64,000 nucleotides of DNA from positions 32,846 through 96,845 of the IMG/VR virus record IMGVR_UViG_3300035698_006641. One strand, given 5' to 3'. Below, in pieces: positions 3,900 through 58,864 of the stretch (position 1 is its first letter; each line of letters begins with the position of its first letter). Source of the stretch: a virus. The notes below the pieces were generated by a model, which was not told the origin of the DNA, made no database searches, and saw only the letters and a list, made by a program, of their open reading frames with translations. A program made the translations under genes and the position numbers.

Positions 3900-5933
3900 T
3901 TATATTTTGATTATGATGTCTCTTGTGAATTTTCCTTTTACTCGTGCTACCACGGTGTTGGACACAGTTGATGAGAACCCCAATCCGTTTAGGGAATTCT
4001 CAGACTCCTGAACCACCATCTTACTTCCAAGTGCTTCGAACACACGTTTATGCTTGGTCAAGTCTTCCTTTAAGAACTCATTAAAGAATCCTCGAGGTGC
4101 TTCATCGCACTGACATCCCTTTAGAAAGAACATGTAATGCTTATTGCCTGCCTGGTTTGCTCCATCCCAGTAATTTGGGCTGAACATTACTGAAGATACT
4201 GGTACGAACGTGTTGGTGTTGAGTCCCCAGACCTTTTTCGAGTTCATGGACATAGACGAGTCAAGGGATGAGATAAACTCCACCCCATTAGCTTCACTGT
4301 ATTCAATCTTAGCAACCACTACGTACTCGTTGCTCTTAAGCGCCTGACCATACGAGAATGACCAGATTTGACCCATGAACTCGATCTCAGCTGTGAACCC
4401 GCTCTTACCACCTCTCTTCGAGTAGCAGTTTACGAGGAAGGTATACGTCCCGTCTTTGATACTCTTCTGAGTAGGCCACGTGATGTTCTCAACTGCAACA
4501 CCCTGTGGATTGATGATGTCTACGTCCAGGTTGCAGCTTGATTTGCTTCCCGGGTGTCCGAAGTAGATCTCTTGCCCTACTAGCTTTGAGCCCGTACAGT
4601 GGGCGTCGAGGTCGTCATGACAGTCGTCGTTATCGTTCCACTGGATTGAGAAGCGCAATGCTCCGTCTACGGAACCGCCAGCTGCCTTCACGTTCTGCTT
4701 CATGCTGTCCGCGACGTCACCGTCGTATGACCACGAGAAGTTGTTGTTCCATTTTAACATAGACGGAGCTTGTGCATTTTCAGGAGCTATTAAGCTGACA
4801 AGATTACCTTGATGTTTTCCCTCCACCAGCAACTCAATTGATTCAGTCGTAGGGAGTATGTCCTCAATGAAGGCCTCCATCGTAACCTCGTCTATTCTGG
4901 TTAGTTTCTTGGGATCCACAGGGATCGACTCCGCTAAACTAGAGAATGCATCTGACTTATTTGCTGTCCCGTCATCTCGATTAAGAAAGAGTACGTTACT
5001 TACATTAATGTCTTCAAGGGTCGCTTGACGACGTGCCAGTGAATCTTCGAATCCAAGATCCCTACACTCCTCCTGAGCTGCTTCCACCATTTTCTTGGTG
5101 AAGATCGCCTTGGGGCGTTTGTAGTTGGCGGGAGCCATAACAGCTTCGAACTTCCGAACTGCTGAATCAAGCTCAACCCCCTCAGAGAGGTCGATAAGCA
5201 ATGTCCCTAGAGCCGTATTACGTATACGTCCCACCTTGCTGACTTTCGATTGTAGCCAACAAAAGTTATCTTGATCCTCTAGTGGAACTAGATCATACCC
5301 TTTCTTAGTCTCGCAGAATAATCTGACTGAAGCCTTATGTTCATCGCCTCGGTATAGAGCCCCTTGTGCGATTAATTCTAGAATCGTTTCTCCTGCCTCT
5401 AAAGTCAGCTCGTCCATGGAGCGCTTAAATACATTCTTTGTATCACGAGCTGTACCGACTATAGATGCAACTGAATCTTTCCCAGAACTAACCACATATG
5501 ATTTTGGCAAAAGAAAATGCAGGTGATTCCACGTGGCAGTAGTTCCGTCCTCCAGCATCTGATGACTCTTGTCAACACCCAAGTGTGCTTCCGTGGACAA
5601 GAAGATGTCGGACACTGGGAGCGAGTGAATATACTCAGAAAGGGCGGTTGCAACTGTACTATACGGGCTATCAAACTCCCCGTCCCACACAGACACAATT
5701 TTGTTATCAACGATACTGACCATTCCACCAGCTCTGCAAATAAATGACTTACATGAATTGCAGTCATGCTCTGTTCTTTCCCTAAAGATCTCGTTAGACC
5801 AGGCAGGGAAACTATTCAAATATAATTCCCAAATTGCTTCTTTGTTAATACTAACTCGAAACAATACCCCGTCTTCAACCATTGAGTCACACTGCCTTTT
5901 AACAGCTTGCTTAAACCTCATAAAATCTGACAT
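3900..5933 (-). CDS. Large protein with DUF2135-like beta domain
   Basis: A 677-residue protein. The N-terminal half (to about 390) shows no family I recognise. The segment around residues 395-500 contains an aspartate-rich strand (WNDNDDCHDDLDAHC), then IYFGHPGSKSS and LDVDIINPQGVAVENI. This resembles the beta-sandwich called DUF2135 or YfaP-like, where the acidic run may bind metal. The C-terminus is beta-rich. It could be virion-associated or act on the host surface, but it has no signal peptide. The resemblance is from motif reading only. Confidence 0.6.
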   Translation of the reverse strand: MSDFMRFKQAVKRQCDSMVEDGVLFRVSINKEAIWELYLNSFPAWSNEIFRERTEHDCNSCKSFICRAGGMVSIVDNKIVSVWDGEFDSPYSTVATALSEYIHSLPVSDIFLSTEAHLGVDKSHQMLEDGTTATWNHLHFLLPKSYVVSSGKDSVASIVGTARDTKNVFKRSMDELTLEAGETILELIAQGALYRGDEHKASVRLFCETKKGYDLVPLEDQDNFCWLQSKVSKVGRIRNTALGTLLIDLSEGVELDSAVRKFEAVMAPANYKRPKAIFTKKMVEAAQEECRDLGFEDSLARRQATLEDINVSNVLFLNRDDGTANKSDAFSSLAESIPVDPKKLTRIDEVTMEAFIEDILPTTESIELLVEGKHQGNLVSLIAPENAQAPSMLKWNNNFSWSYDGDVADSMKQNVKAAGGSVDGALRFSIQWNDNDDCHDDLDAHCTGSKLVGQEIYFGHPGSKSSCNLDVDIINPQGVAVENITWPTQKSIKDGTYTFLVNCYSKRGGKSGFTAEIEFMGQIWSFSYGQALKSNEYVVVAKIEYSEANGVEFISSLDSSMSMNSKKVWGLNTNTFVPVSSVMFSPNYWDGANQAGNKHYMFFLKGCQCDEAPRGFFNEFLKEDLTKHKRVFEALGSKMVVQESENSLNGLGFSSTVSNTVVARVKGKFTRDIIIKI

Positions 5934-33232: not shown

Positions 33233-34429
33233 CGATTTTGTTACCCAGCAGGCTCTTTATCCTGCTGTTCTAACGCTAGGATGCGTTTGGCATATTCAAC
33301 TTTAAACGTACTGAACTCATGCTCAGTTTTTGTGTGCTTCAGCTGGTTGCAGTTTTTGCAACACGGGGCAATATTACTCGGTTTTATTAGCTCAGCGAAC
33401 CTCTCTAGGTTATCCGCTGAACTAAGCGGGGTCCGGTGGTCAAATGTAGTAACCTCGGTGGTTAGGGTTTCACCACAGTATACACACCTATACCCAACAG
33501 ACTCTAACATCTGAGTAAGATCTTGAGGTTTGATTACACTAGGGAGGTCATCGATCTTTGGATCTACAGTATCGATGAGCATCGATAGCTTCTGAGTTGC
33601 CCTAGAGTTTATTGAGTAAGCCCTCTGACGAAGATAGTTATGTGTAAATGAGTCCGGTCGTTTATTACCGCTGAAGTACTTATCTAAGCACTCATCGCAT
33701 AACTTATGCACGCGACCACCAGAGGTTCCTCGCTTACCAGCTGTATTAGAGAACTCCTTTAGAGACTTTTTTCCGAAGCACTTTGAGCAAATCCTCTGCC
33801 CTGTAGCTTTCAGCTCTTCATTCATCTCATCAATTCCCAGCTCCCTTTCCCCAAATACCCTACTTCTACGAGCATCAACTACCCTAGCAGACTTACACGG
33901 GGTGCACTCTGTATAGGCTGGTTTGCTCAAATCTGAGTTATCTATAGGTACCCCACACGTTTTGCAAGTGGTTCTACGGGTTTCACGCCAGTCAACCTCT
34001 TTAGTAGGGCCCAACATTCTTCGACGTCTTTTAGACTCTCTTATAAAAGATAATTGACACTTCTTACACCTAGGAAAAGACTTCTTGGTCATATCAGAGT
34101 TATCAATATAGGTTCCACAGTCTTTACATGTGGTTCTTCGCGGCCACCCGCCTTGTTGTTTACGTTTTGTTGTTTCCATTGCATCCTTTACAGTCTTACG
34201 TTAGTCCAGGCCATATCATAACCACCATTTGGTGGTCCAGAGCGCTCGTGGACGAATTATAGGCGGTCTGCCCAGTCGTCTGGTCGTTGCACTTTCGACG
34301 GGTTCCCCCGAAACTTAGCTCATGATTACCAAACTACCACACTAGGCTGACTAAGTCAACCAAAAGTAGTAGCACTGTAAAGGCTTCCCATGAATTCACT
34401 CTGTTTTTATTCCCCAATTCCAATATTTT
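33233..34429 (-). ncRNA. Group I intron 3 in DNA polymerase
   Basis: 1197 bases. The exon ends in U (CCT) and the intron ends in G. The core contains GTGCAACGACCAG and CAGACCGCCTATAA, conserved near P7 of phage group I introns. A P9-like hairpin (CAGCAGG/CCTGCTG) closes the 3' end. The HNH gene fills the region between core and 3' end. The 15-base ATAGGCGGTCTGCCC segment (plus strand 34259-34273) is shared with intron 2. Confidence 0.88.
33241..34179 (-). CDS. HNH homing endonuclease encoded in intron 3
   Basis: A 312-residue protein. Three zinc-binding CxxC pairs come first: TTCKDCG/CKKC, TTCKTCG/CTPC and ICSKC/CDEC. A C-terminal HNH domain follows, CVYCGE...TFDHRTPLS...NIAPCCKNCNQLKHTKTEHEF (about residues 235-300). 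Such enzymes cut intronless alleles so the intron spreads; SPO1 DNA polymerase has a comparable HNH enzyme, I-HmuI. The stop codon lies 8 bases before the 3' splice site. Confidence 0.88.
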   Translation of the reverse strand: METTKRKQQGGWPRRTTCKDCGTYIDNSDMTKKSFPRCKKCQLSFIRESKRRRRMLGPTKEVDWRETRRTTCKTCGVPIDNSDLSKPAYTECTPCKSARVVDARRSRVFGERELGIDEMNEELKATGQRICSKCFGKKSLKEFSNTAGKRGTSGGRVHKLCDECLDKYFSGNKRPDSFTHNYLRQRAYSINSRATQKLSMLIDTVDPKIDDLPSVIKPQDLTQMLESVGYRCVYCGETLTTEVTTFDHRTPLSSADNLERFAELIKPSNIAPCCKNCNQLKHTKTEHEFSTFKVEYAKRILALEQQDKEPAG

Positions 34430-34693
34430 AGGGAAATTGATGGCTGCTCTCTCTTGAGAAGCCATTATACTCCTGCTTGAGCTATGAAAGAAGTACCTTC
34501 TCATCCCAAATGGGTTCTCAGCGTATCCCGGATTATATACCGCGGCACGTTGTCGATCCATGTACTCTTCTAGTTTTGGGTAACTGTTAAAGATACCCTC
34601 AATTACTCGTTCTGCGTAGGCTTTGTCAGCGTCCTTAATCCCAGCAATGGTTAATTGTCGGGCTAGTGAGTAAGCTGAGCGGCCATAGATTAA
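34430..34693 (-). CDS. DNA polymerase, exon 3
   Basis: 88 codons. It begins LIYGRSAYSLARQL, the second half of motif B (after FG in exon 2), and ends ERAAINFP. Between them lies the fingers region YAENPFGMRRYFF. Both splice junctions keep the frame exactly (264 bases). Confidence 0.85.
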
Positions 34694-35061
34694 CGGTTTT
34701 GTTATCCTACTGGCTTTTTATCCAATAGTTCTGCACCTTCATTTTAGGTTATAGATGCAGCCCAGCATATCTTTTAACCCAGTAACGGGTCTCCCGGCCT
34801 CGTGGTAGCTGATAGGCGGTCTGCCCCTGCTACTATGCGTTGCCCCTGGATCCCATTCCTGGGAGCCTTCGGTTCTGGTTACCCTCCTCAGGGCTTTCCA
34901 GCTTCATTCCGGGATTTTAATTTGGCTATGAATTCGTTAAAATGTAATAAGTATTTTTGGGTGTCATCCCCAAAACTACTTATTACATTTTAACTTAATC
35001 GGCATTTAGTAACTCCTAATCTCTTTAGTCGTTATCATATAATACCGTCCTTCATTTATCA
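34694..35061 (-). ncRNA. Group I intron 2 in DNA polymerase
   Basis: 368 bases without a gene. It starts after the U of GGT and ends in a G before TTA. It contains GGGGCAACGCATAG and the CAGACCGCCTAT block shared with intron 3. A 26-bp near-perfect hairpin (plus strand 34936-34961 with 34969-34994) forms a peripheral extension. Confidence 0.85.
34936..34994. repeat. 26-bp inverted repeat inside intron 2
   Basis: Arms GTTAAAATGTAATAAGTA... pair over 26 bp with one mismatch and a 7-base loop. It is an RNA hairpin within the intron, possibly a loop extension such as P6 or P9, or the remnant of a deleted insertion. Confidence 0.8.
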
Positions 35062-35274
35062 ACCAAATAGTACAATCTTACTTGCACTTCTAAGAGGGTT
35101 CATTTCCCTCTTAACGTACTTCTTTCTGTTCTCCCCATCAGGCACCTTTATTCCAAATGCCCGTATTGCAGTCTCACAGTGAATACACCTGTCATCATCC
35201 TCTGAGATTGATATTAGGTTTTCGTCCCCTGAGACTCTTGCTACTGCTGATATTTCTGCGGCTTGGTAATCTGC
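35062..35274 (-). CDS. DNA polymerase, exon 2
   Basis: 71 codons starting ADYQAAEISAVARVSGD, motif A (equivalent to DYSQIELR), and ending SASKIVLFG, the first half of motif B. The splice joins GYVIIG to ADYQ. Reading this piece alone gives no start of its own, and the frame upstream is intron. Confidence 0.88.
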
Positions 35275-35565
35275 CTTGCATGTTCCCGTGTGGCTCTTTA
35301 TCCACACCTCTCGCTTTTCTTTTGTCATATAGCGAGATTAGACTATTTTTTGACCTCGTAGAGGTCTCCCGGACTCTTGGATTTATTATATTCTACATAC
35401 TGTAGTTTCAAAACCTAGTCGTTGCACGTGTCAGAGGTGTTACCCAAGGACTTCCGTTCGAGTTGCCCTCTTCAGGGGTTCCTCGTTTTTTCCGGGATCA
35501 TAATCCAAGTGATCGCTCACTTGGACGGCGCTAATCTAGTTGATTATACAACTAGACTGTTATTC
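35275..35565 (-). ncRNA. Group I intron 1 in DNA polymerase
   Basis: 291 bases without a gene. Exon 1 ends in U (GGT) and the intron ends in G (AAG). Core signatures are GGGTAACACC and CACGTGCAACGACTAGG, the P3/P7 hallmarks of phage group IA introns. Removing it fuses exon 1 to exon 2 in frame. Confidence 0.85.
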
Positions 35566-37785
35566 ACCAATAATTACATAGCCAGGAGGTGCTTTAATGC
35601 AACTCCTAATAACGTCGTACCTCGGGTCTAGTAGACCCTTATCCACCAACTCTCTACTATCTGCACCCTCCCATTTGTGCTCGTCAGAGAACATCTCATC
35701 ACTTAACGCGAACTGTTTTCTGATACTAGGTTCGGCGGAGGCACCGGGTAGGTTATTAAGGTTAGGCTTTAAACTTCTAAACCTTTGTGTCTCGGTAGTA
35801 GCTAAGTACGTCCCTCTGATCATTCCATCGTTATCTACACACCCTATCAATCCTGAGTCATATACCTCCTCTACGGATCCATCCTCGTCCTCAATGACAG
35901 ATGGTGGTCTCAAGAAGTTTGTTACAACTTGGTTAATAGCTTTATAGTTGATCACGGCATCCAGAAGATGCTCGTATCCTGGGTTAGCTTGAGATACTAG
36001 GGTTAACGCGTCTCCACTTGTTCCAGGACTTTCACTCATTTTGTCCTCCTCGTCTAGGGAGGCCCATTCCTTAGGGTATTTTCCGGTAGTCTGCGACGGT
36101 TCAAGTCCCAAGGTCTCTATGCCTTCAGGGAGCTTCTTAGTGCAATACCTTTGACCAAATAGATAACCCCTCAATAACTGACTGCCCGGATCAAATCCTT
36201 TCCAGGTCATATCCTCTAGAACACGTAGCAACTCCTCTTGCTTCTCTAAGAATAAAGATTGTAACTTTTTCATTAACGTGAGATCTACAGGCATACCAAC
36301 GTACTCAGGTTCAAAGATCCCAACGTCAGCCTTGCGTACCACGTTTAGGTAAGCGTCCAGCTGCGTCCAATTCTCTTTACCTTCGATTAAGTATCCAGCG
36401 TACCGAGGATCAATAGGGTTATTCCTAAGAGCCTCTTCTAGTTGTGGCCAGATCTGGATAACAGAATCTACATCTTTAGATGAGTATAAGAACATAATGT
36501 TATCCGGTATCTTGGAGTATCCATGTTTCTCTGTGTGAGACTTAAGTCCAGGAGTAGCTTTGATGTATTCTGTTAACCTGTTCTCATACATACCTAGGTC
36601 CGTATACTCTAATGCGCAATATGTTAGACCTACTGACTCAGTCTGTGGCTTAAGTGCATGGTATGCAGTCATTGTGTCAAATGCAAAGTTCTCTCTACAA
36701 TCAATACCAAGTCTCATCAAATGAATTAAGTCAACTTTAAAGTTATGACCTCCCAACTCTACACCGACCATCTCGAATAGAGCTTTCAGATACTCAACTT
36801 TTTCTGCGTGGTCTGGATACGGGACTAAATCAGGGTCAGTCATAGCCACAGTGAACGCCGTGTGTTCCTTAACAGAGAACTGTATATAACGCACTATGTC
36901 ATGCATAACGCCTTCTCTACCGTTCGGGTTGCCCCACTCGGTGTCTACGGCAATCCTTAACGGGTTACCGCGGATATATGCGTCCTGTAAGTATTCCATA
37001 AGAATATCCGTTACTACGGACTTAAGCTCTTTTGCATCTTCAATGAACCTGTAATCTTTATATTCCTGTGGTACGTCCCAAGGCATCTCTTCACCACCCA
37101 AGAGGGCAACTATCCTGATAAGATCAAGTTCTAGAGACATCTCTGAGCTGGGATTAGAGATAAGCTTGTACGGGTCCACTGTGTAGTAGACCGGGATACC
37201 TTCGTACGTCTCATGGGACTGCCCTTGGAAGTTTCCTACAAGCCCTTTAGACCCGTAAAGACCTTTTAATGAACCGGACCCAAGAACCAATATGGCCTCA
37301 GGGTTAATACGGCTTATAGACTCTCTTAGCACAGGTTGAAAAGCTGTGATAAACGGAACAAGTAGTTTCCCACCTTTCGGATAGAATGGAACTGCGTATG
37401 TGCAGTATATATCTTCCGGTTCCAATTCTGGAACTCTTCCGACAAGGGTGTCAACTATGAGCTCTAATTCAGGTACTGGCAGTCTGTTCTGCTGTGTACC
37501 TTCAATAGACGGGTGTGGGCAGACTATTAACAGCTTAGTTTGCCTAGACGGGTGTGGCTTTAGGTACTTTCCTCTAAGAGCATCATCCGATACTTGGTTG
37601 TTAATCTCTTTTGGCCAACCCCACAGTCCACTAGGAATTGTAGTGCACTCGATTTGTTTTAGTTTTTTAGTAAAGTCGGCTGTAAACGACTGTTTCTCGA
37701 TTAAGACTTTCTGAATAAACTGATCATCAGTTAAATCTAACTCTTGCGCTATACTGTGCAATGATGGTTTTAATAAATCAGCCAT
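35566..37785 (-). CDS. DNA polymerase I family, exon 1 (UDG-like and exonuclease domains)
   Basis: 740 codons; the spliced protein is 998 residues. Residues about 84-225 resemble a uracil-DNA glycosylase fold (LLIVCPHPS..., then VLGSGSLKGLYGSKGLVGNFQG and YYTVDPYKL). The usual HPS catalytic loop is replaced by DPYK, so it is probably inactive. A 3'-5' exonuclease follows: AVDTEW (D281, E283), GGHNFKVDL and YSSKDVDS. The UDG-exo-pol order is known in SPO1-type polymerases. The exon ends within the approach to motif A. Confidence 0.88.
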
Positions 37786-37822: not shown

Positions 37823-38107
37823 TTAATCTTCAGCCTCTAATGAGGCAGAGACATCAGAGTCATACATAATAACGTAATCAACCCCATCCCTCTTGATGTC
37901 TACTCCTCCGTACTCCGGCAAGAGGACAACGTCATCTACATTAAGAAGATTAGGTACAAGTATTCCGTTGATTACCCTTCCTGGGCCAACGGCTACTACA
38001 GTGCCTTGATTCTTCTTAATTCCGCTAGAGACAAAAATGCCTCCAATCTCCTCTTCAACTGGGTCCTTTTTAATTAAGACCCGATTCTGTGTTGGTTTAA
38101 TATTAAT
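37823..38107 (-). CDS. GroES-like co-chaperonin, probable AUU start
   Basis: 94 residues if it starts at the ATT at 38107: (M)NIKPTQNRVLIKK, exactly like GroES 'MNIRPLHDRVIVKR'. GTGGAG lies seven bases upstream. The first ATG in frame (38218) would add 37 residues unlike GroES and overlap the upstream gene. The later VVAVGPGR and DVVLLPEYGG segments fit GroES. Phage GroES homologues (such as T4 gp31) help the host chaperonin fold capsid protein. It lies just downstream of the ubiquitin-like cassette. Confidence 0.88.
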   Translation of the reverse strand: MNIKPTQNRVLIKKDPVEEEIGGIFVSSGIKKNQGTVVAVGPGRVINGILVPNLLNVDDVVLLPEYGGVDIKRDGVDYVIMYDSDVSASLEAED

Positions 38108-38123
38108 ACTTAATCTCCACTTT

Positions 38124-38489
38124 TTAGTACATAACCCTATCTCGCATCCGTCTCCCGATCTCTGCGGACTCATTTCTGCATAAAAGATAAATCCAGAACG
38201 GCCCATACTGGTAGACATCTAGAAGTCTTTCCATTACTACCATGATACCTGGGATGAATCTCCTATTGCCGATAAGCTCAGACACTATATTGACATCGAT
38301 ACCTTTGACAGCATCGTCAATAACATATCTACTGAGTCTCATTTCCGGGTGATCTTTCGTAGGAACGAATTCACAGATCGCTGCATCAACTAAATCTTTA
38401 GCCTTTTCTCCATTTTCAGTATGAGGCTCGGTGCAGCTTATAATCTGAGGGAACATTTTGATTACAAGATTATAGACTTTTTCATACAT
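38124..38489 (-). CDS. Hypothetical protein between E2-like and GroES genes
   Basis: A 121-residue helical protein with an 8-base overlap with the E2-like stop, so it is translationally coupled to the cassette. No domain recognised. It might belong to the conjugation cassette or to the GroES gene. Confidence 0.55.
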   Translation of the reverse strand: MYEKVYNLVIKMFPQIISCTEPHTENGEKAKDLVDAAICEFVPTKDHPEMRLSRYVIDDAVKGIDVNIVSELIGNRRFIPGIMVVMERLLDVYQYGPFWIYLLCRNESAEIGRRMRDRVMY

Positions 38490-39234
38490 GAGTAAGGTCC
38501 CAAGCTTTATTTAAAACAGCTGCTGGGATAGAAGGAGCTATTACATCAAACATAGGCAATACATCCGCCTCGGTATCTACACAGGGCATGAGTTGTTCCC
38601 CAGACTCCGGATCGAATCGAACCAGTTTATTACATTTCATGGAATTATCCAGATTCCATAGATCTGAATTCCAACGATTAGCCTCCCATGCTGTGAAAGT
38701 GGCTTCAGAGACGTCATAAAGACTGTGACAATTCTCTAGTTCTCCGGTACACAACCTACCATCACCGTGAATATTGGCCAGTGGATAGTTTAGGAATTTT
38801 TTAATACCGGTTGCGCCACAGTCATGAGTCATACCAAAAAGGAATACCATCAAATGCTCCTCACTGCGAGATAGAGGGAACTTTATTGAACTAGGGACCT
38901 CTATGATCATTACAGTGGGTACGGGTACTTTGAACTGACGACTGACGCTAGCTATACCATCTGAGAAGCACGGGGTCTCAAAGATCCCGGTTTCTCCGTT
39001 TCCCTCTGAAAGAGTCCATCTTGCCTTGATGCTAAACTCAGAAACAGCTCTGATACAAAACATTCTATCATTACTTAAAACAAACTGAGTATCTTTACAC
39101 ATCGGTATACTAAAATCAGGAACAGATGTAATTAGTCTCACAACAGCTTCTGTGTTCAAAACTGGAGACTCTACGGTATCACGTATGAAAGCAACCCCAT
39201 TTGGCTTTATAATTAACTCTTGATTATCTGTCAT
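38482..39234 (-). CDS. E2-like protein of ubiquitin-like system (PRTRC B / Prok-E2 type)
   Basis: A 250-residue protein. The C-terminal half has YPLANIHGDGRLCTGELENC (about residues 150-169), where C162 sits like the catalytic cysteine of prokaryotic E2-like proteins ('N.h.dGrvC.G' in PRTRC system protein B). Trp-rich 'AWEANRWNSDLWN' follows. The role would be to accept the modifier from E1. The gene lies one base after the E1 gene. The fold is inferred from motif and context, not measured. Confidence 0.7.
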   Translation of the reverse strand: MTDNQELIIKPNGVAFIRDTVESPVLNTEAVVRLITSVPDFSIPMCKDTQFVLSNDRMFCIRAVSEFSIKARWTLSEGNGETGIFETPCFSDGIASVSRQFKVPVPTVMIIEVPSSIKFPLSRSEEHLMVFLFGMTHDCGATGIKKFLNYPLANIHGDGRLCTGELENCHSLYDVSEATFTAWEANRWNSDLWNLDNSMKCNKLVRFDPESGEQLMPCVDTEADVLPMFDVIAPSIPAAVLNKAWDLTHV

Positions 39235-39235
39235 T

Positions 39236-39922
39236 TTACTTAATCTCCATTTTACTTTGATTGATACAATCTTGGATTGTTACTGTTTGTACCGCGGATG
39301 GAACCCATCGATACTCTATTGGTGACTTATTAAATACTGGAGTATCTCGCACAAACGAGGACTTTTGAGACCAGAACCACAATAACCCTAACGCGTAGGT
39401 TGCTGCAAACTGATTAGCAATAGCCAACTGTGGGTCGGATACCTGGGCCTCTCCGGTACAGGATCTTGTTGGATCCCCGGAAATATTGTCCATAGACCCT
39501 GCGTAACGAACCCTATAATCCATAGGGCTTCCATACAACGTAGGCTCATAGTACGAAGCGGATGCTGATTCATACGTATTTCCACAAATAAATGCCGGCA
39601 CCCCGAAAATATCAGAGGACTGCAGTGCTACTTTTCTTGCTGGCATGTTATCCGGACAGGCAAAAATCATGTCTGTTCCTTCTAAGTCAGTAGGAGTCAC
39701 AACGTATGAGTTGTGCGGTATAATACCTGGGTACATGATAGACATAGCTTCTGCCTTGCATTTACCTATAAACCTTTTCGGGAATAACTGACGATCTAAA
39801 TTCCCTTTTTCTAGGATGTCCTCGTCCCATACATGAACCTCTGGACATTCTAATACATTCTTCATTAGAACTGGGATTAGGTAAGACCCAATTCCCCCAG
39901 CTCCGATTACATCAATTCTCAA
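39236..39922 (-). CDS. E1-like ThiF/HesA-family adenylyltransferase
   Basis: A 228-residue protein. It has the GAGGIGSYL nucleotide loop (residues 7-15), WDEDILEKGNLDRQLF (about 32-47, the D..NLxRQ signature that binds ATP) and FIGKCKA. C155 in RSCTGEAQVSDPQLAIANQFAA is the candidate thioester cysteine, near the site used in PRTRC ThiF proteins. There is no CxxC zinc site. It activates the C-terminus of the ubiquitin-like protein. The gene abuts both JAB and E2-like genes, showing one unit. Confidence 0.88.
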   Translation of the reverse strand: MRIDVIGAGGIGSYLIPVLMKNVLECPEVHVWDEDILEKGNLDRQLFPKRFIGKCKAEAMSIMYPGIIPHNSYVVTPTDLEGTDMIFACPDNMPARKVALQSSDIFGVPAFICGNTYESASASYYEPTLYGSPMDYRVRYAGSMDNISGDPTRSCTGEAQVSDPQLAIANQFAATYALGLLWFWSQKSSFVRDTPVFNKSPIEYRWVPSAVQTVTIQDCINQSKMEIK

Positions 39923-41056
39923 TTAAGCTCCTTCTTTCTTTTCTGATTGCATATAAAAGTCTATCAGTGCCTCACGGTAGTCCGAGGCATAATCAGCCAA
40001 GGCTTGAAACACTGACGGATCAATAGTGGACAATGTTACGCTCCAATCTAGAGCAGTAATCACTTCATCAAACTGTTCACGTGCTAATTTAGACAGGCCC
40101 CATACGTCCATAGCGGATTCCATTAGGCCGAGAACTATCTCTGGTCCAAGCTCCGTATCTTCGAGTGAGTCCATGTAGTCATTATAGTCATACTCACTAT
40201 CCTCGTCCTCTTTCTGCCATCGTGCAGCTTGAGCACTTGACGGGTTGTAGGAGTTCGCTGGGGATGGAGGAAATGAACCATAAGCCTGATTAGGGTTGTA
40301 AGTACTGCGGTTACCCGGAGACCATGTAGAAAATCCGAACTTCTTAGAGGCAACCATTCCAAATGTTCCGTATCTAACGGGAGCAACAACCTTTTTAGTC
40401 ATTTGGTCTTTCCACTCTTTTGGTGGCTCTGGAAGATTCTTAATAGCTAGGACTCCGTTGTCAACGTACGGAACAAACCCAAGAATATCTGGTTCATAAC
40501 ATATCTTGCGTACAACACACCTTCCATGGAATGATGCCTCCGTTGTATCTAAATCTCCAATGGTGTAATGAAACCCTTCAGTTTCAATTTCATCTTTGTA
40601 GTCTGTGGATGATTGAAAGGCACTCATTGTGCAGTGGTGGTGCGCTGATCCTACGTGTCCGAATCCATCTTTAGCCAATGCGGCCTTCATAACCTCAAAG
40701 TTAGGATCCTTGTCATTCTCAGTAGAAGACGCCCCTGAGATGATAAACTGGGGCATGACTACAGCTTTCCACTGTTTGTCACTTTTCCGGTAGTAAAGCC
40801 TTAGTTGAGACTCACATGCATATTCATCAAATGACCACTTGAAGAACCCAAGAATCTCTCTAAACAAAGTAGGAGGGAGTATAGATCCGGTCCATTCTAG
40901 ATATAGGTCTTCTGTATTAGATTCAGGTATAACCGCAGCTATATCCCCAAACCACTGTCCCCAAGTTACGTTAGGAAGAACAGCATGACCATCAACTGAT
41001 AAAATACTCCCGTCAGCAATGATTCCATGTGGTGGTGCTTCTTTAGGTTCTGGCAT
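39923..41056 (-). CDS. JAB/JAMM metalloprotease (deubiquitinase-like)
   Basis: A 377-residue protein; the start at 41056 follows AGGAG. The JAMM motif is H139-H140-H141-x7-S149-x2-D152 (HxHx7SxxD) with an upstream candidate glutamate E82. These ligate Zn for isopeptide or peptide cleavage. After the core there is a Pro/Ser/Asn-rich linker and an acidic C-terminal helix. It probably processes the ubiquitin-like precursor or removes conjugates. The gene overlaps the upstream unknown gene by 14 bases. Confidence 0.87.
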   Translation of the reverse strand: MPEPKEAPPHGIIADGSILSVDGHAVLPNVTWGQWFGDIAAVIPESNTEDLYLEWTGSILPPTLFREILGFFKWSFDEYACESQLRLYYRKSDKQWKAVVMPQFIISGASSTENDKDPNFEVMKAALAKDGFGHVGSAHHHCTMSAFQSSTDYKDEIETEGFHYTIGDLDTTEASFHGRCVVRKICYEPDILGFVPYVDNGVLAIKNLPEPPKEWKDQMTKKVVAPVRYGTFGMVASKKFGFSTWSPGNRSTYNPNQAYGSFPPSPANSYNPSSAQAARWQKEDEDSEYDYNDYMDSLEDTELGPEIVLGLMESAMDVWGLSKLAREQFDEVITALDWSVTLSTIDPSVFQALADYASDYREALIDFYMQSEKKEGA

Positions 41057-41774
41057 CCATAATCTCCTGTACATTCCAGTCACTAATCTCTCCGTGATCA
41101 GAAATAAATTGTTCAATCTCGTATATGATTTCATCTATCAGTGATAAATCATTTCCGTCAGCAGCTTCACTAACGTCATAGCTATTTCCTAGTGTGTCTG
41201 TATAGCTAACTGAGGTGACGCCGCCATCGTAGTCTTCAGAGTTGCATATCTCACAATTATCATCGTAGTACTCCATATCACTTGATGATTCTCCATAATA
41301 CCCATTATCCTCTAAACACCCCCATAAACTACAACCGTCTTCATCTCCGAGCTCTCCAGGCATAAAAGTAATTTCACCAGAGACAGTCTCATCTTGATAA
41401 GCGTAAATACCGCAATACTCATTAGTCCTCTTAATTTCAGCTGCGACTACTACTCTCCCACGAGGTTGACCACCGTCAGCATCAGTTGGAAGAGTTGGAC
41501 CACCACGATCGCCAGGATACCAACGGAAAGCAGAGTTTCTATAGTTCTCGTAGTCTGGTACTAGTGATAACAATTTATCAATGTCACCCAGCTCTGAGAC
41601 CTTAGCCCCTTTTTTCCGCCAGAACATCGAGGCTATTGATTGTGGATTCCTTAGGGAACCTTCGTCTAACGTGAAATATAATTCTCCACCCCAATACGGC
41701 GTTAATGCCCGTACCAACTCAGAATTTGATTCTCCTAGTTGTTCACACTTTTCGTGTATTTCATCTCTTGTCAT
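41043..41774 (-). CDS. Unknown protein of the ubiquitin-like cassette
   Basis: A 243-residue acidic protein. Residues about 95-130 are Asp/Gly/Pro-rich, a Tyr/Asp/Glu-rich region follows with a CEICN pair (about residue 173) and a WGC, and the C-terminus is helical. It matches no family I know. Its stop overlaps the JAB start, so it is coupled to the cassette. It could be a conjugation substrate, adaptor or E2 partner. Confidence 0.65.
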   Translation of the reverse strand: MTRDEIHEKCEQLGESNSELVRALTPYWGGELYFTLDEGSLRNPQSIASMFWRKKGAKVSELGDIDKLLSLVPDYENYRNSAFRWYPGDRGGPTLPTDADGGQPRGRVVVAAEIKRTNEYCGIYAYQDETVSGEITFMPGELGDEDGCSLWGCLEDNGYYGESSSDMEYYDDNCEICNSEDYDGGVTSVSYTDTLGNSYDVSEAADGNDLSLIDEIIYEIEQFISDHGEISDWNVQEIMDART

Positions 41775-41808
41775 ACTTTATCCCTTATCTTTAATCCATA
41801 AAATAATA

Positions 41809-41836
41809 GACCCCACTACCCTTAGGTAGCGGGGCC
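41809..41836 (-). terminator. Terminator after the ubiquitin-like gene
   Basis: Minus strand GGCCCCGCTACC-TAAG-GGTAGTGGGGTC followed by TATTATTTTATGG. It starts 21 bases after the ubiquitin-like stop codon. It would stop most transcripts there and let a fraction read into the enzyme genes. Confidence 0.75.
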
Positions 41837-41857
41837 ATTTAGCGCTTAATTAATCAA

Positions 41858-42313
41858 TTATCCAAGCAGGCCTTTGTCATGTGCTTTGGTGCTCAGGACA
41901 ATGTCATCTCCGTCAGCGATCTCTACGTCCCCAAGAACAGGGGAACCGTTAAGACTCAAGCTCATGTCATCACCGGTACCAAAAGTCATCTGGACCAGCT
42001 GAGAAGCTAGGATTTCAGCCGCTGTACTACCGATGGATTCAAGGTCAAACTGAACCTCGTTTACACCGTTGCGAATAGTAACTACAGCATCTGCACCTTT
42101 GTCATGTGCTTTGGTGCTCAGGACAATTTCATCTCCGTCCTCGATAAGGAAGGAAGAGGACTCGAAGGTTCCGTTAACCTCAGCGGCCATGTCGTCCCCG
42201 ATACCGAACATCTGCTGGATTACAGAGGATCCCAGGAGGGACTTAACATCGGTGATGTTGAGGTTGGCTTCGTCAATGGTGACATCACTAGCGGCGCAAT
42301 AAATAGTAATCAT
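41858..42313 (-). CDS. Tandem ubiquitin-like (beta-grasp) protein
   Basis: A 151-residue protein with two repeats, residues 1-73 and 77-148. Each runs from a strand through 'GIGDDM' or 'GTGDDM' to DGD(E/D)IVLSTKAHDKG. The ending DGD.I.L resembles MoaD/ThiS/Ubl proteins. Between repeats is ADA, and the C-terminus is KG-LLG; a protease could expose a KG end. Two 44-base DNA copies (41871-41914 and 42096-42139, one mismatch) show recent duplication. It is upstream of the JAB, E1 and E2-like genes. It probably is the modifier or its precursor. Confidence 0.8.
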   Translation of the reverse strand: MITIYCAASDVTIDEANLNITDVKSLLGSSVIQQMFGIGDDMAAEVNGTFESSSFLIEDGDEIVLSTKAHDKGADAVVTIRNGVNEVQFDLESIGSTAAEILASQLVQMTFGTGDDMSLSLNGSPVLGDVEIADGDDIVLSTKAHDKGLLG

Positions 42314-55162: not shown

Positions 55163-55282
55163 ACACCCTCCCTCTTTTGTGCGGAGGTTATTCTTAGTTA
55201 CGAATAATTTGTATGGTTTTTTGTGTAATTTTGTTATATGGTTCTTGTGTGTTTGACCCAAAAGAGTCTGAGAAAGAATACT
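55163..55282. promoter_or_regulatory. Divergent intergenic region
   Basis: 120 bases between a minus-strand start and the plus-strand terminase start, A/T-rich. Divergent promoters are expected, and GTTATAT near 55230 is a weak -10 candidate. No consensus pair is convincing, so the site is inferred from gene direction only. Confidence 0.4.
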
Positions 55283-58200
55283 ATGTCGGAAATTGAAAAT
55301 GTTTTAGCCAAGTACGTGGCCATGATTAAAAACGGGGAACTTACTAATTTGTCACCCCTTCTACCTTTACTGTTTACATTAAGAGGCAAGCCGTTCTCTT
55401 TGAAGGATCACTTTTTGTGGGAGCCTTTGTTTAACGTGCAGGTCCCCAAGAAGCGTACGATTGTTTGCGGAAGACAGGTAGCAAAATGTATCCTAAGTAC
55501 CTCTAAGGTAACTACTTACACCGGAGAACATATAGCTGCTGCTGACGTAGCTGTTGGCGACAAGTTGTTGTGCCTGAACGAGAACGCCCCAGGGTGGGAG
55601 TCCACCTCCGGATTGGTTACTAATGTCTTCAATAACCTAAGCAAACCAATGAGGGTTATCACAACCCGTATGGGCTCTGAGGTGACGGTGTCTAATGATC
55701 ATCGCCTTAGGACTGCTGGTGGGTATGTGCGATCTGAAGAGCTATCTGTAGGGGACAGGATCTGCAGGATACGTAGGGGCGGTGAGTTTGAAAATAAGAA
55801 AGTGGACCGTAAAAGGTTAGTTAAGTGGTTATCAGAGGACGGGCTTATTGGGTGTAGATCTCATGAAAAGTTTATTCCAGAGTGGGTTTTTTCATTGTCC
55901 AAAGCGGATACAATTACTTTCATATCTAGGCTGTATGCCACGGATGGTTGCATTAAATCCATTAATGGGAGCCCGTCAATAACCTATTGTAGTAACTCAA
56001 GGGCTTTGATAGATGGGTTGCAGTCACTTCTCACTAAACTTGGCCTACCATCCTCTATTCGTTTCTGGGACCCAGAGGTTGGTAGAAGAGCCTACAGCCT
56101 CAGGATCGAGACCAGATCCTCACAGGACTGGTTCTTAAATAACATTAAGGTGCCAGGCAAGCCAATCCCAACCGGACTCATTAAGAAGAAGTCTAGCAAC
56201 AACAGGGACACTTGGCCTAAAGATCACGTAACATCTATCATAGAGAGACACACCAGAGACACTATTTACCAGAGGGGTGAAAGTCTACGTAAACACGGAT
56301 TGAGAAAAACCCTAAAATACCAACCAAGTATAGAAAAAATACACCAATACATCGAGTACTTCGATCTCATAGGCAATCATGATGCTGTGAGTGACCTATC
56401 TATATTAGTTGATACTGATGTGTATTGGGACACTATTGAGTCAATTAAGGAGGTTGGTGAGTGTGACGCAATAGACTTTGAGATCGAAACACACCACAAC
56501 TTCGTACTAGCTGGGGGGATTGTGACCCACAACTCGGAGACTTCTGCTGTGCAAATGCTTTCTTGGCAACTACTTAGAGATTATATGAACATTCTCTATG
56601 TAGCCCCAAGGGACAACCAAACAAAGATCTTTTCAAATGACAAGGTGGGTCCGTACATAAAGAGCTCACCTGTTTTCAAGGATGTAGATAAGAGTCTCCC
56701 GAATGGGGTGTATACTCGGTCAATTAAAGATGGAAGTAACATGTACTTCTCCTATGCCTTCCTTGATGCCGAGAGGATAAGATCAATTACGGCAGGGGCT
56801 GTATTCTATGACGAAAGTCTTGTCGGAGATACTCTAATTCCGACATACGACTTGTCCGGAGTAAGAACAGTTAAAAACATTTCTGACATTAAAGCCGGAG
56901 ATATAGTTGACAGCTTCACTGATAAGGGTTGTAAACTATCAAGTGTAGTAGTCTGCGACGCTTCCTTTCATGGAAATCAGCCGTGCTACCGTGTTACCAC
57001 AAGTAGTGATAAATCGGTTGTCGGGACCTCTACACATCCGTTGTGGACTAATGAGGGGCCTCTTCGGATCGGAGAGATGATAAGAAATGTATACAGACCT
57101 GCAATCACAGATAAAGAGAACTTTCTCATAGATCCAGATCCAGATGTTGTTAGGGACTCTTCTCGGAGATGGGAACCTATCAACACCGAAGCACAAGAAG
57201 ACGGCGAGTTACCGGTCCAGACACGGGGAACATCAACATACATACAATCAAGACAAATACATGATATTGTCAGAGTACGTAATAGAGCCTCCTTCACTAA
57301 AGAAGAACGGGAACTTCAAGGCCTCATCTTGGACAACCCACCGACACAAGGACTTTCACTGTGTGTCCTTGATGACATACAGCAAAACCACCGAAAAAGG
57401 GAACCCGAAGTCTCTGAGATAGGAATCAAAGCAGTACATGGGGATGAACCCGGAGAAGCTGGCAGAGACGGAGGCCCTGAGAGCCTATCAGTCCCTACGA
57501 GATGTAAGGAGACAGATGACCCAATTGTAAAAATAGAATATGTTGGTATGATCGACGTATGGGACATAGAGGTAGAAGGGACACACAACTACATACTAGA
57601 TAACGGCTTTAAAAGTCTTAACTGCCAAGATATCAACCCTGCATTCCGTGTACCTATCCAGCAGGTCATGGCCGCATCCCTCGACTTCGGTGTGACTCAG
57701 AGTACAGGAACACCCAAGACCTTCGATAATAACTTAGAGACCCAGTGGGCTCAAAGTAGTCAAGCTGAATGGTGTATACCGTGCAACAAATGCAACAAAT
57801 TGAATGTTGCTGGTGTGGAGTTTGACTTGCTCAAAATGATTCAGCCACACGGCCTAGCTTGCGCCAAGTGTGGTGCCCTCATCAATACCAGAGAAGGTTG
57901 GTGGGAACATAGGTATCCCAACAGACGAGAACGCCATGAGGGATACCACGGTCCACAGCCAGTCTTCCCGATGCATTGTGAGAAACAGCCAGATGAGATA
58001 AATACCAAGGTAGGCCGGAAATGGACGGATCTCCTTTATAACCAAGAAGATATGCCAACCTACGGCTTCTACAACGAAATCCTAGGTACTTCTTACGACA
58101 ATGCTGATGAGCTTATTAGTAAAACATCCTTAGTGGAGAACTCTACACTAGATCATGATAATACCTTAGATGCGGCTATTAAACTTGCACACAACAGAGT

Positions 58201-58864
58201 TAAGTATACTTTCGTATCAATGGGGGTTGACTGGGGCGGAGGCGGAGAGAGCGGAGTAAGCCGTACAGCTATTACCGTATTAGGGTGGAAGGCAACAGGA
58301 AAACCAGATGTCATTTACATGCATCGCATAACCAACCCAATGGCCACTGACCAGGAATCTCTGTACATTAAGCAACTAGCCGCAAGATTCAATGTTGACC
58401 TACTAGCTGACGACTATTGCGGAGCTGGTGAGGCCAAAGAGATCATACTGTTGCAGACTGGATTCCCTTATAGCAAATTAATGCCCGTTGCCTACGTACC
58501 ATCTACTGTAGGTAAGATGATGGAGTACGTTCCAGCAGAAGATAAGGTTAGCCGTCCATACATCAAGGCTGCTAGAACCAAGAGCCTGTCAATAATGGCG
58601 GCACTAATCAACAACGGATATTATACCTTTCCAAAATTCGAGTCTTGGGACTCCCACGACTATCCGAATAATCTATTGTCATTGGTACAAGAGAAGCGCG
58701 ATAGGTCTGGTGGTTCTGCTCGTTACTTCATCACTCACAAAGCTGGTAGAGCTGATGATTTGGCTCATGCGCTCATGTACGCTTCTATTGGGTACTGGTT
58801 TGTCACCAAGAATACTCCGGACTTCACTAAGCTACTCGGAAGAGAGTTTTCTGAAGAAGTCTAG
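55283..58864 (+). CDS. Terminase large subunit with two inteins
   Basis: An 1193-residue precursor that would give a 575-residue protein. The ATG at 55283 is chosen over an upstream GTG-type start. The terminase ATPase reads GRQVAK|S (Walker A) and VFYDE|CQD (Walker B). A C-terminal nuclease follows with GVDWGGG, LLADDYCGAG and GRADDLAHAL, the RNase-H-type metal site. A CxxC...CAKCG zinc ribbon lies between. It packs DNA through the portal. It is the only large gene on this strand here. Confidence 0.92.
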   Translation: MSEIENVLAKYVAMIKNGELTNLSPLLPLLFTLRGKPFSLKDHFLWEPLFNVQVPKKRTIVCGRQVAKCILSTSKVTTYTGEHIAAADVAVGDKLLCLNENAPGWESTSGLVTNVFNNLSKPMRVITTRMGSEVTVSNDHRLRTAGGYVRSEELSVGDRICRIRRGGEFENKKVDRKRLVKWLSEDGLIGCRSHEKFIPEWVFSLSKADTITFISRLYATDGCIKSINGSPSITYCSNSRALIDGLQSLLTKLGLPSSIRFWDPEVGRRAYSLRIETRSSQDWFLNNIKVPGKPIPTGLIKKKSSNNRDTWPKDHVTSIIERHTRDTIYQRGESLRKHGLRKTLKYQPSIEKIHQYIEYFDLIGNHDAVSDLSILVDTDVYWDTIESIKEVGECDAIDFEIETHHNFVLAGGIVTHNSETSAVQMLSWQLLRDYMNILYVAPRDNQTKIFSNDKVGPYIKSSPVFKDVDKSLPNGVYTRSIKDGSNMYFSYAFLDAERIRSITAGAVFYDESLVGDTLIPTYDLSGVRTVKNISDIKAGDIVDSFTDKGCKLSSVVVCDASFHGNQPCYRVTTSSDKSVVGTSTHPLWTNEGPLRIGEMIRNVYRPAITDKENFLIDPDPDVVRDSSRRWEPINTEAQEDGELPVQTRGTSTYIQSRQIHDIVRVRNRASFTKEERELQGLILDNPPTQGLSLCVLDDIQQNHRKREPEVSEIGIKAVHGDEPGEAGRDGGPESLSVPTRCKETDDPIVKIEYVGMIDVWDIEVEGTHNYILDNGFKSLNCQDINPAFRVPIQQVMAASLDFGVTQSTGTPKTFDNNLETQWAQSSQAEWCIPCNKCNKLNVAGVEFDLLKMIQPHGLACAKCGALINTREGWWEHRYPNRRERHEGYHGPQPVFPMHCEKQPDEINTKVGRKWTDLLYNQEDMPTYGFYNEILGTSYDNADELISKTSLVENSTLDHDNTLDAAIKLAHNRVKYTFVSMGVDWGGGGESGVSRTAITVLGWKATGKPDVIYMHRITNPMATDQESLYIKQLAARFNVDLLADDYCGAGEAKEIILLQTGFPYSKLMPVAYVPSTVGKMMEYVPAEDKVSRPYIKAARTKSLSIMAALINNGYYTFPKFESWDSHDYPNNLLSLVQEKRDRSGGSARYFITHKAGRADDLAHALMYASIGYWFVTKNTPDFTKLLGREFSEEV
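55487..56533 (+). other. Intein 1 in TerL (Walker A)
   Basis: 349 residues, C69 to N417. It starts CILSTSKV and ends GIVTHN, followed by Ser (+1): all standard junction residues. Block B is VSNDHRLR. A degenerate LAGLIDADG-like motif (FISRLYATDGCI, about residues 220-231) suggests endonuclease ancestry. It splits the P-loop between Lys and Ser, so the precursor cannot bind ATP. Confidence 0.9.
56816..57622 (+). other. Intein 2 in TerL (Walker B)
   Basis: 269 residues. It starts at Ser (SLVGDT) and ends FKSLN, followed by Cys (+1). Block B is GTSTHPLW, and block F is IDVWDIEVEGTHNYI. The penultimate residue is Leu instead of His. No LAGLIDADG or HNH motif is seen in the 150-residue centre, so it is a mini-intein or carries a decayed endonuclease. 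The exteins join DE to CQD in the Walker B motif. Confidence 0.85.

Follow-up and report, generated by a model that had tools for sequence, protein, structure and literature searches.

The 64,000-nucleotide stretch of viral DNA analysed here (the window; bases 32846-96845 of the 96,845-bp virus record IMGVR_UViG_3300035698_006641) carries five adjacent genes on the minus strand at 38482-42313, which probably encode a complete, phage-owned pathway for conjugation of a ubiquitin-like protein (Ubl). Comparison with relatives supports the presence of a full tagging kit, made up of a two-copy tag protein plus enzymes for its activation (E1), transfer (E2-like) and removal by cutting (JAB). A first-pass annotation had proposed this cassette. 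The open reading frames (ORFs) were found where it had placed them, and the proposal is now backed by independent profiles, by invariant catalytic residues and by recurrence of this gene set in numerous other large phages. The features are:

41858-42313, minus strand: tandem Ubl, 151 amino acids (aa)
42095-42313, minus strand: Ubl repeat 1, ends KAHDKG
41870-42094, minus strand: Ubl repeat 2, ends KAHDKG, then LLG and stop
41809-41836, minus strand: hairpin, 12-bp stem and 4-nt loop, directly past the Ubl stop, then a T-rich tail
41043-41774, minus strand: protein X, 243 aa, acidic
39923-41134, minus strand: JAB/JAMM metalloprotease, 403 aa
39236-39922, minus strand: E1/ThiF-type activating enzyme, 228 aa, TTG start
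38482-39234, minus strand: E2-like conjugating enzyme (Prok-E2_D / PRTRC_B related), 250 aa

The start codon of the E1 gene is preceded by GGAG, a sequence like a ribosome-binding site, and its product contains the noted motifs GAGGIG and NLDRQ. C155 (39458-39460) is the candidate thioester cysteine. S154-C155, R44-Q45, K56, D91 and R96 are invariant in 10 of 10 aligned sequences. Among family models, E1 matched ThiF (3e-10) and PRTRC_ThiF (4e-7), and PADLOC (2023) run on the window returned CBASS-type E1-E2 models only, matched by E1 only. In JAB, the expected HxHx7SxxD signature is present as H165-x-H167-x7-S175-x2-D178; these four residues and E108, the likely catalytic Glu, are invariant in the alignment with relatives. 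JAB matched Prok-JAB (0.005) and PRTRC_A (0.019), and its identity to the nearest relatives is 26-36% (E down to 5.8e-16). The candidate cysteine of the E2-like protein, C162 (38749-38751), lies in the arrangement N154-x7-C162-x-G164, with N154 in the position of the HPN Asn; all 22 phage sequences agree at N154, C162, G164 and N189. Conservation of C162 and C155 had been chosen beforehand as a test on which the proposal could fail, and both cysteines proved invariant across relatives.

Since the family-model scores for E1, JAB and E2 stood at these values (for E2, Prok-E2_D at 0.026 only), hidden Markov models (HMMs) were built from relatives alone, without window sequences, and searched against a set of 6,951 ORFs. 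E1, JAB and E2 were the only significant ORFs of the window. The values were 9e-18 for E1 and 7e-10 for JAB, reaching 4.5e-24 and 4.9e-16 with more relatives (31-37 seeds for these two profiles). The E2-like protein was matched at 4e-4 in the first set and dropped to 0.0098 with 28 seeds because the window E2 is divergent. An HMM of the three nearest E2s found it at 1.9e-6, as the top match beyond seeds and duplicates, and hhalign of that profile against the window E2 gave 92.6% and 4.5e-7. A search for the double motif N..[GS][DE]..hC.G...N.D[LIFH] gave one occurrence in the 943 frames of the genome and none in 300 shuffled sets. Compared to the PDB, the phage E2 profile yielded 13 sequences at E<=1, all of them ubiquitin-conjugating enzymes (weak, E 0.36-1 each), and in the profile alignment the phage N-x7-C falls exactly on the HPN-x7-C (HPN and catalytic Cys) of Rad6-type eukaryotic E2s. 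The E-values are weak singly; the concordance of all matches is what carries weight.

The tandem Ubl had also been noted, and its two repeats are 41% identical. It has no match in the family models. An AlphaFold (AF2) model of repeat 1 (predicted local distance difference test, pLDDT, 75.5) has the order beta-beta-alpha-beta-beta-beta, and its best single match among PDB folds is MoaD (E 1.3e-3, template modelling score 0.64), with further matches to ubiquitin, ISG15, SAMP1 and archaeal ubiquitin. Repeat 1 is thus modelled as a beta-grasp fold. The tail DGD.I...KAH[DE]K is common to the window and to the Ubl genes standing first in the cassettes of its nearest relatives. The MoaD match, together with that of E1 to the ThiF family, would also suit a sulfur carrier or other adenylation chemistry in the manner of ThiS/MoaD-ThiF instead of protein tagging. 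However, an E2-like protein and a JAB accompany E1 in nearly every relative, and no rhodanese or desulfurase was noticed in the genome, which was only partly searched for one. We consider this explanation very improbable.

Single-protein scans with the window E2, E1 and JAB (IMG/VR) and with E1 (GTDB) retrieved no relatives, a search with the pattern GNLDRQLFP gave chance matches only, and no close relative of the virus record as a whole turned up in the collections searched. A tblastn search with E1 led to crAss-like phages, PRTRC plasmids and a Bacillus plasmid (L074), and from these matches onward to Bacillus phage KLEB27-3, Vibrio phages D69, D148 and D181, Salmonella phage Arash and Acinetobacter phage ME3. 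Two degenerate motif patterns yielded 44 distinct IMG/VR loci. In 19 of the 44, E2, JAB and E1 are adjacent in this order, and a Ubl gene lies ahead in 15 of those 19. Retrieval of the loci relied on E1 or E2 motifs, so that neither a neighbouring JAB nor a Ubl gene was a condition of selection. The same gene set also occurs in Arash, D69 and KLEB27-3, all cultured phages; ME3 has a version with a split JAB and crAss-like phages a divergent one. No published description of such a cassette in a phage was found in the open-licence literature.

The Ubl precursors of the relatives contain one, two, three or four repeats, and most end in [TA]G[TN]KG, many with a stop right after KG. Identical repeat pairs are present in three loci (L119, L107 and L121), and KLEB27-3 has at least three near-identical repeats. 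The window has its closest kin in four contigs (G049-G052; loci L140-L143), whose E1 proteins are 30-34% identical to that of the window. These contigs share a Ubl with a DGD..KAH[DE]K-like tail, a JAB of HHHC or HSH type and an E2 with N-x7-C, but have a single Ubl and the order Ubl, E2, E1, large unknown protein, JAB. In the E1 tree, the window groups with them (support 91/93) on long branches. Between two of these contigs, nonsynonymous divergence (dN) is 0.08-0.20 and synonymous divergence (dS) 1.1-2.5 (near saturation) for Ubl, E2, E1 and JAB, indicating purifying selection.

Several observations were made on individual phages. The Ubl frame of Arash (MSTSIRATVVHIPGRD...YFSRRTGTKG and stop, L081 1-304) differs from the annotated gp251; the deposited call seems wrong, though gp251 peptides were reported. 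In ME3, the JAB gene (L080 1763-4870) is split exactly at the catalytic DIH|SH by a stretch with an annotated tRNA and small ORFs, which looks like an intron with homing-type genes. A 108-kb virus record (G014, L128 4928-8126) has a different E1 beside a JAB-like protein with HSHV..S..D and a reverse transcriptase gene, another phage variant of E1 plus JAB. One candidate relative (L006) turned out to be an ordinary MoeB.

On the minus strand of the window, the gene order is primase, Ubl, X, JAB, E1, E2-like, small protein, GroES, PolA. The cassette is tightly packed, with the genes from X through E2-like touching or sharing a few bases. The description of the genes as mostly overlapping did not hold, since X and JAB form the sole overlap within the cassette (92 bp nominal). 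The true start of JAB is likely 41056, at Met27 after AGGAG, and because a good ribosome-binding site stands ahead of this Met27 the overlap is probably 14 bp. JAB has an N-terminal domain. X sits in the slot held by PRTRC F or a protein of about 300 aa in related cassettes. It has no family-model match, no match to the F, E2, JAB, E1 or Ubl profiles and no close kin detected. The 83-bp gap between Ubl and X contains the strong hairpin, which has the longest stem among the terminator-like matches of a scan and a fold z-score of -2.81; the number of terminator-like sites in the region equals the shuffled expectation, without enrichment. From its sequence, the hairpin could be a terminator or attenuator. 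It could stop part of the transcripts, and the Ubl would therefore be in excess over the enzymes.

Compared to known systems, the cassette resembles PRTRC and operon type 6d of Iyer et al. 2006 (Iyer 6d; PMC1779556) in its Ubl, in a JAB with N-terminal domain, in a stand-alone E1 with an 'SC' motif, in an E2 of Prok-E2_D type and in an extra protein (the helical F in PRTRC) in the slot of X. It differs in its tandem MoaD-like Ubl and in the position of E2 after E1. No match to the PRTRC ParB-type protein (TIGR03734) was obtained in the virus record, nor to PRTRC C (the Ubl, TIGR03742) or F (TIGR03738). The scores of E1 against PRTRC_ThiF (29.6 bits), of JAB against PRTRC_A (14.5 bits) and of the E2-like protein against Prok-E2_D (14.7 bits) are below the cut-offs of 144.75, 101.8 and 25 bits, respectively. 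Because ParB, C and F were not found and every score lies under the curated cut-off, the cassette is not a PRTRC system and by sequence falls outside PRTRC, though homologous to it. The joint presence of Ubl, JAB, E1 and E2-like genes, by which Iyer 6d is recognised, is observed in the window, and in kind the cassette belongs to this operon type. The E2 of Iyer 6d has an absolutely conserved His downstream of the cysteine (PMC1779556), which is absent here; the window has W-N-S-D-L and the phage subfamily N-x-D-L. The N-terminal domain of the Iyer 6d JAB has strictly conserved Arg and Trp (PMC1779556); in the window, Y and K are found within the VWN...R stretch, as assigned by us. The best reading of these comparisons is a PRTRC-like (Iyer 6d) lineage in which the phage would run reversible Ubl conjugation.

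The crAss-like phages (crAss001, DAC15, cr111_1) share order and setting with the window (primase, Ubl-like gene, unknown, JAB, ThiF), but their E1 is only about 33-36% identical over 100 aa, and there is no profile-level E2 or Ubl match. The gene before JAB in these phages (L004 2977-4311 and kin), annotated as hypothetical, has a conserved [ND]-x7-C-[LT]-G with E2-like spacing, and is the probable E2. The gene after ThiF had been considered as E2 and was dropped, being without a conserved cysteine, whereas the gene before JAB has [ND]-x7-C-x-G.

The window further carries a DnaB-like helicase, a UvsX-like recombinase, DNA ligase, anaerobic ribonucleotide reductase, portal and terminase. The cassette lies within the replication block, between primase and PolA, and far from the structural genes. 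Primase also precedes it in crAss001, cr111_1, cr126_1 and cr128_1. The PolA frame (35560-37785, minus) ends within the polymerase domain, past PPGYVIIGE, and is followed by an HNH endonuclease gene (33241-34179), as if polA (33241-37785) were interrupted by an intron. The N-terminal part of PolA weakly resembles uracil-DNA glycosylase (0.0011); in crAss-like phages, a separate gene for this enzyme follows the cassette. Two genes downstream of E2, a GroES homologue is encoded (37823-38218, minus; Cpn10 4.5e-16). The terminase large subunit (55238-58864, plus) contains an intein with a LAGLIDADG domain (Pfam 1.9e-17, 3.2e-11). A 677-aa protein (3900-5933, minus) shows 39-53% identity to a family of hypothetical proteins (phrog_1735, 1.7e-247) from large phages, Ackermann-like ones among them. 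Phages with this structural protein do not have the cassette in common with the window: of 48, one has an E1, of another type.

In the pathway that we propose, JAB would cut the tandem Ubl precursor after each ...KG. E1 would adenylate the freed C-terminal glycine and take the Ubl onto Cys155, as its conserved residues suggest. The Ubl would then be handed to Cys162 of E2 and joined to lysines of target proteins, with Asn154 predicted to stand where eukaryotic E2s hold the isopeptide-forming Asn. JAB may also take the Ubl off again, making the tagging reversible. The pathway would act intracellularly, with phage or host proteins as its substrates, while the genome is replicated and the host taken over. 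The intracellular role is favoured because the operon is part of the replication block, with primase on one side and PolA on the other. We are fairly confident that the pathway combined with such intracellular action in replication or takeover is the best explanation overall; an early intracellular role of the cassette, taken by itself, is more tentative, at slightly less than an even chance.

Several points weigh against this reading. The AF2 model of the E2-like protein (pLDDT 44) is too poor to use and gave no fold match. X is left without explanation in the pathway. The Ubl genes of two nearest relatives end in KAA instead of KG. Known bacterial operons of this kind have been shown to act in defence and not on behalf of a phage. 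The site of the cassette varies, from the replication block here and in crAss-like phages to the vicinity of structural genes in Arash, and because of this difference in location a role in replication does not extend to all carriers.

Particle preparations are reported to have yielded peptides of Arash gp246 (E1), gp247 (JAB), gp248 (E2), gp249 and gp251 (PMC10585845), as would fit virion maturation, with the Ubl modifying capsid or tail proteins or the enzymes being packaged. Packaging of the Arash enzymes is possible, but carry-over is likely because these preparations held 116 proteins including replication enzymes (PMC10585845). Considering also the distance between cassette and structural genes in the window, we regard a role in virion maturation as improbable.

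Like BilABCD (PMC11354881), the cassette has a tandem ISG15-like Ubl, E2, JAB and E1 as separate genes; the four genes of Bil are all represented, and no E3 is seen in either system. It differs in being phage-carried, in its place in the replication block and in having X; the comparison with Bil was made by gene content. By analogy, the cassette may work like Bil. Demonstrable kinship by family models is, on the present matches, with PRTRC proteins, plus the CBASS E1-E2 models for E1 only. Bil tags the phage tail fibre (PMC12948488, PMC11354881), and a kit that matches it in all four activities and in its tandem Ubl could serve superinfection exclusion, tagging structural proteins of competing phages and spoiling their assembly. 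The family-model matches point to PRTRC proteins instead, the cassette is not among accessory genes, and its carriers include isolates without lysogeny genes, e.g. Arash (PMC10585845). Superinfection exclusion is therefore considered unlikely. As hosts turn Ubl conjugation on phages (PMC12948488, PMC11354881), the cassette could also act in counter-defence, the JAB and E1/E2/Ubl stripping or mis-loading host conjugates of Bil or CBASS type or serving as decoys. The JAB is accompanied by E1, as such a function might have it, but a decoy could do without the full gene set, the conserved cysteines of E1 and E2 and Ubl precursors of several repeats, and we judge counter-defence to be distinctly unlikely.

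Returning to phage-run conjugation, we lean slightly towards the view that an undescribed, widespread class of tailed-phage operons (crAss-like, Arash-like, ME3-like, KLEB27-3 and the window) runs its own Ubl signalling in the course of infection, in which polyubiquitin-like precursors would be cut by JAB and host or phage proteins tagged to control replication or takeover. In the cultured carriers, most kit genes bear the annotation 'hypothetical', 'structural' or 'thiamine biosynthesis'. Since such carriers are at hand (Arash, ME3, Bacteroides phage crAss001, Vibrio phage D69, Bacillus phage KLEB27-3), the role can be tested now. Bacterial Ubl conjugation is known as an anti-phage defence, and full kits with poly-Ubl precursors in many phages reverse the question, which becomes what phages tag and whether their kits gave rise to the bacterial ones or are counterparts of them.

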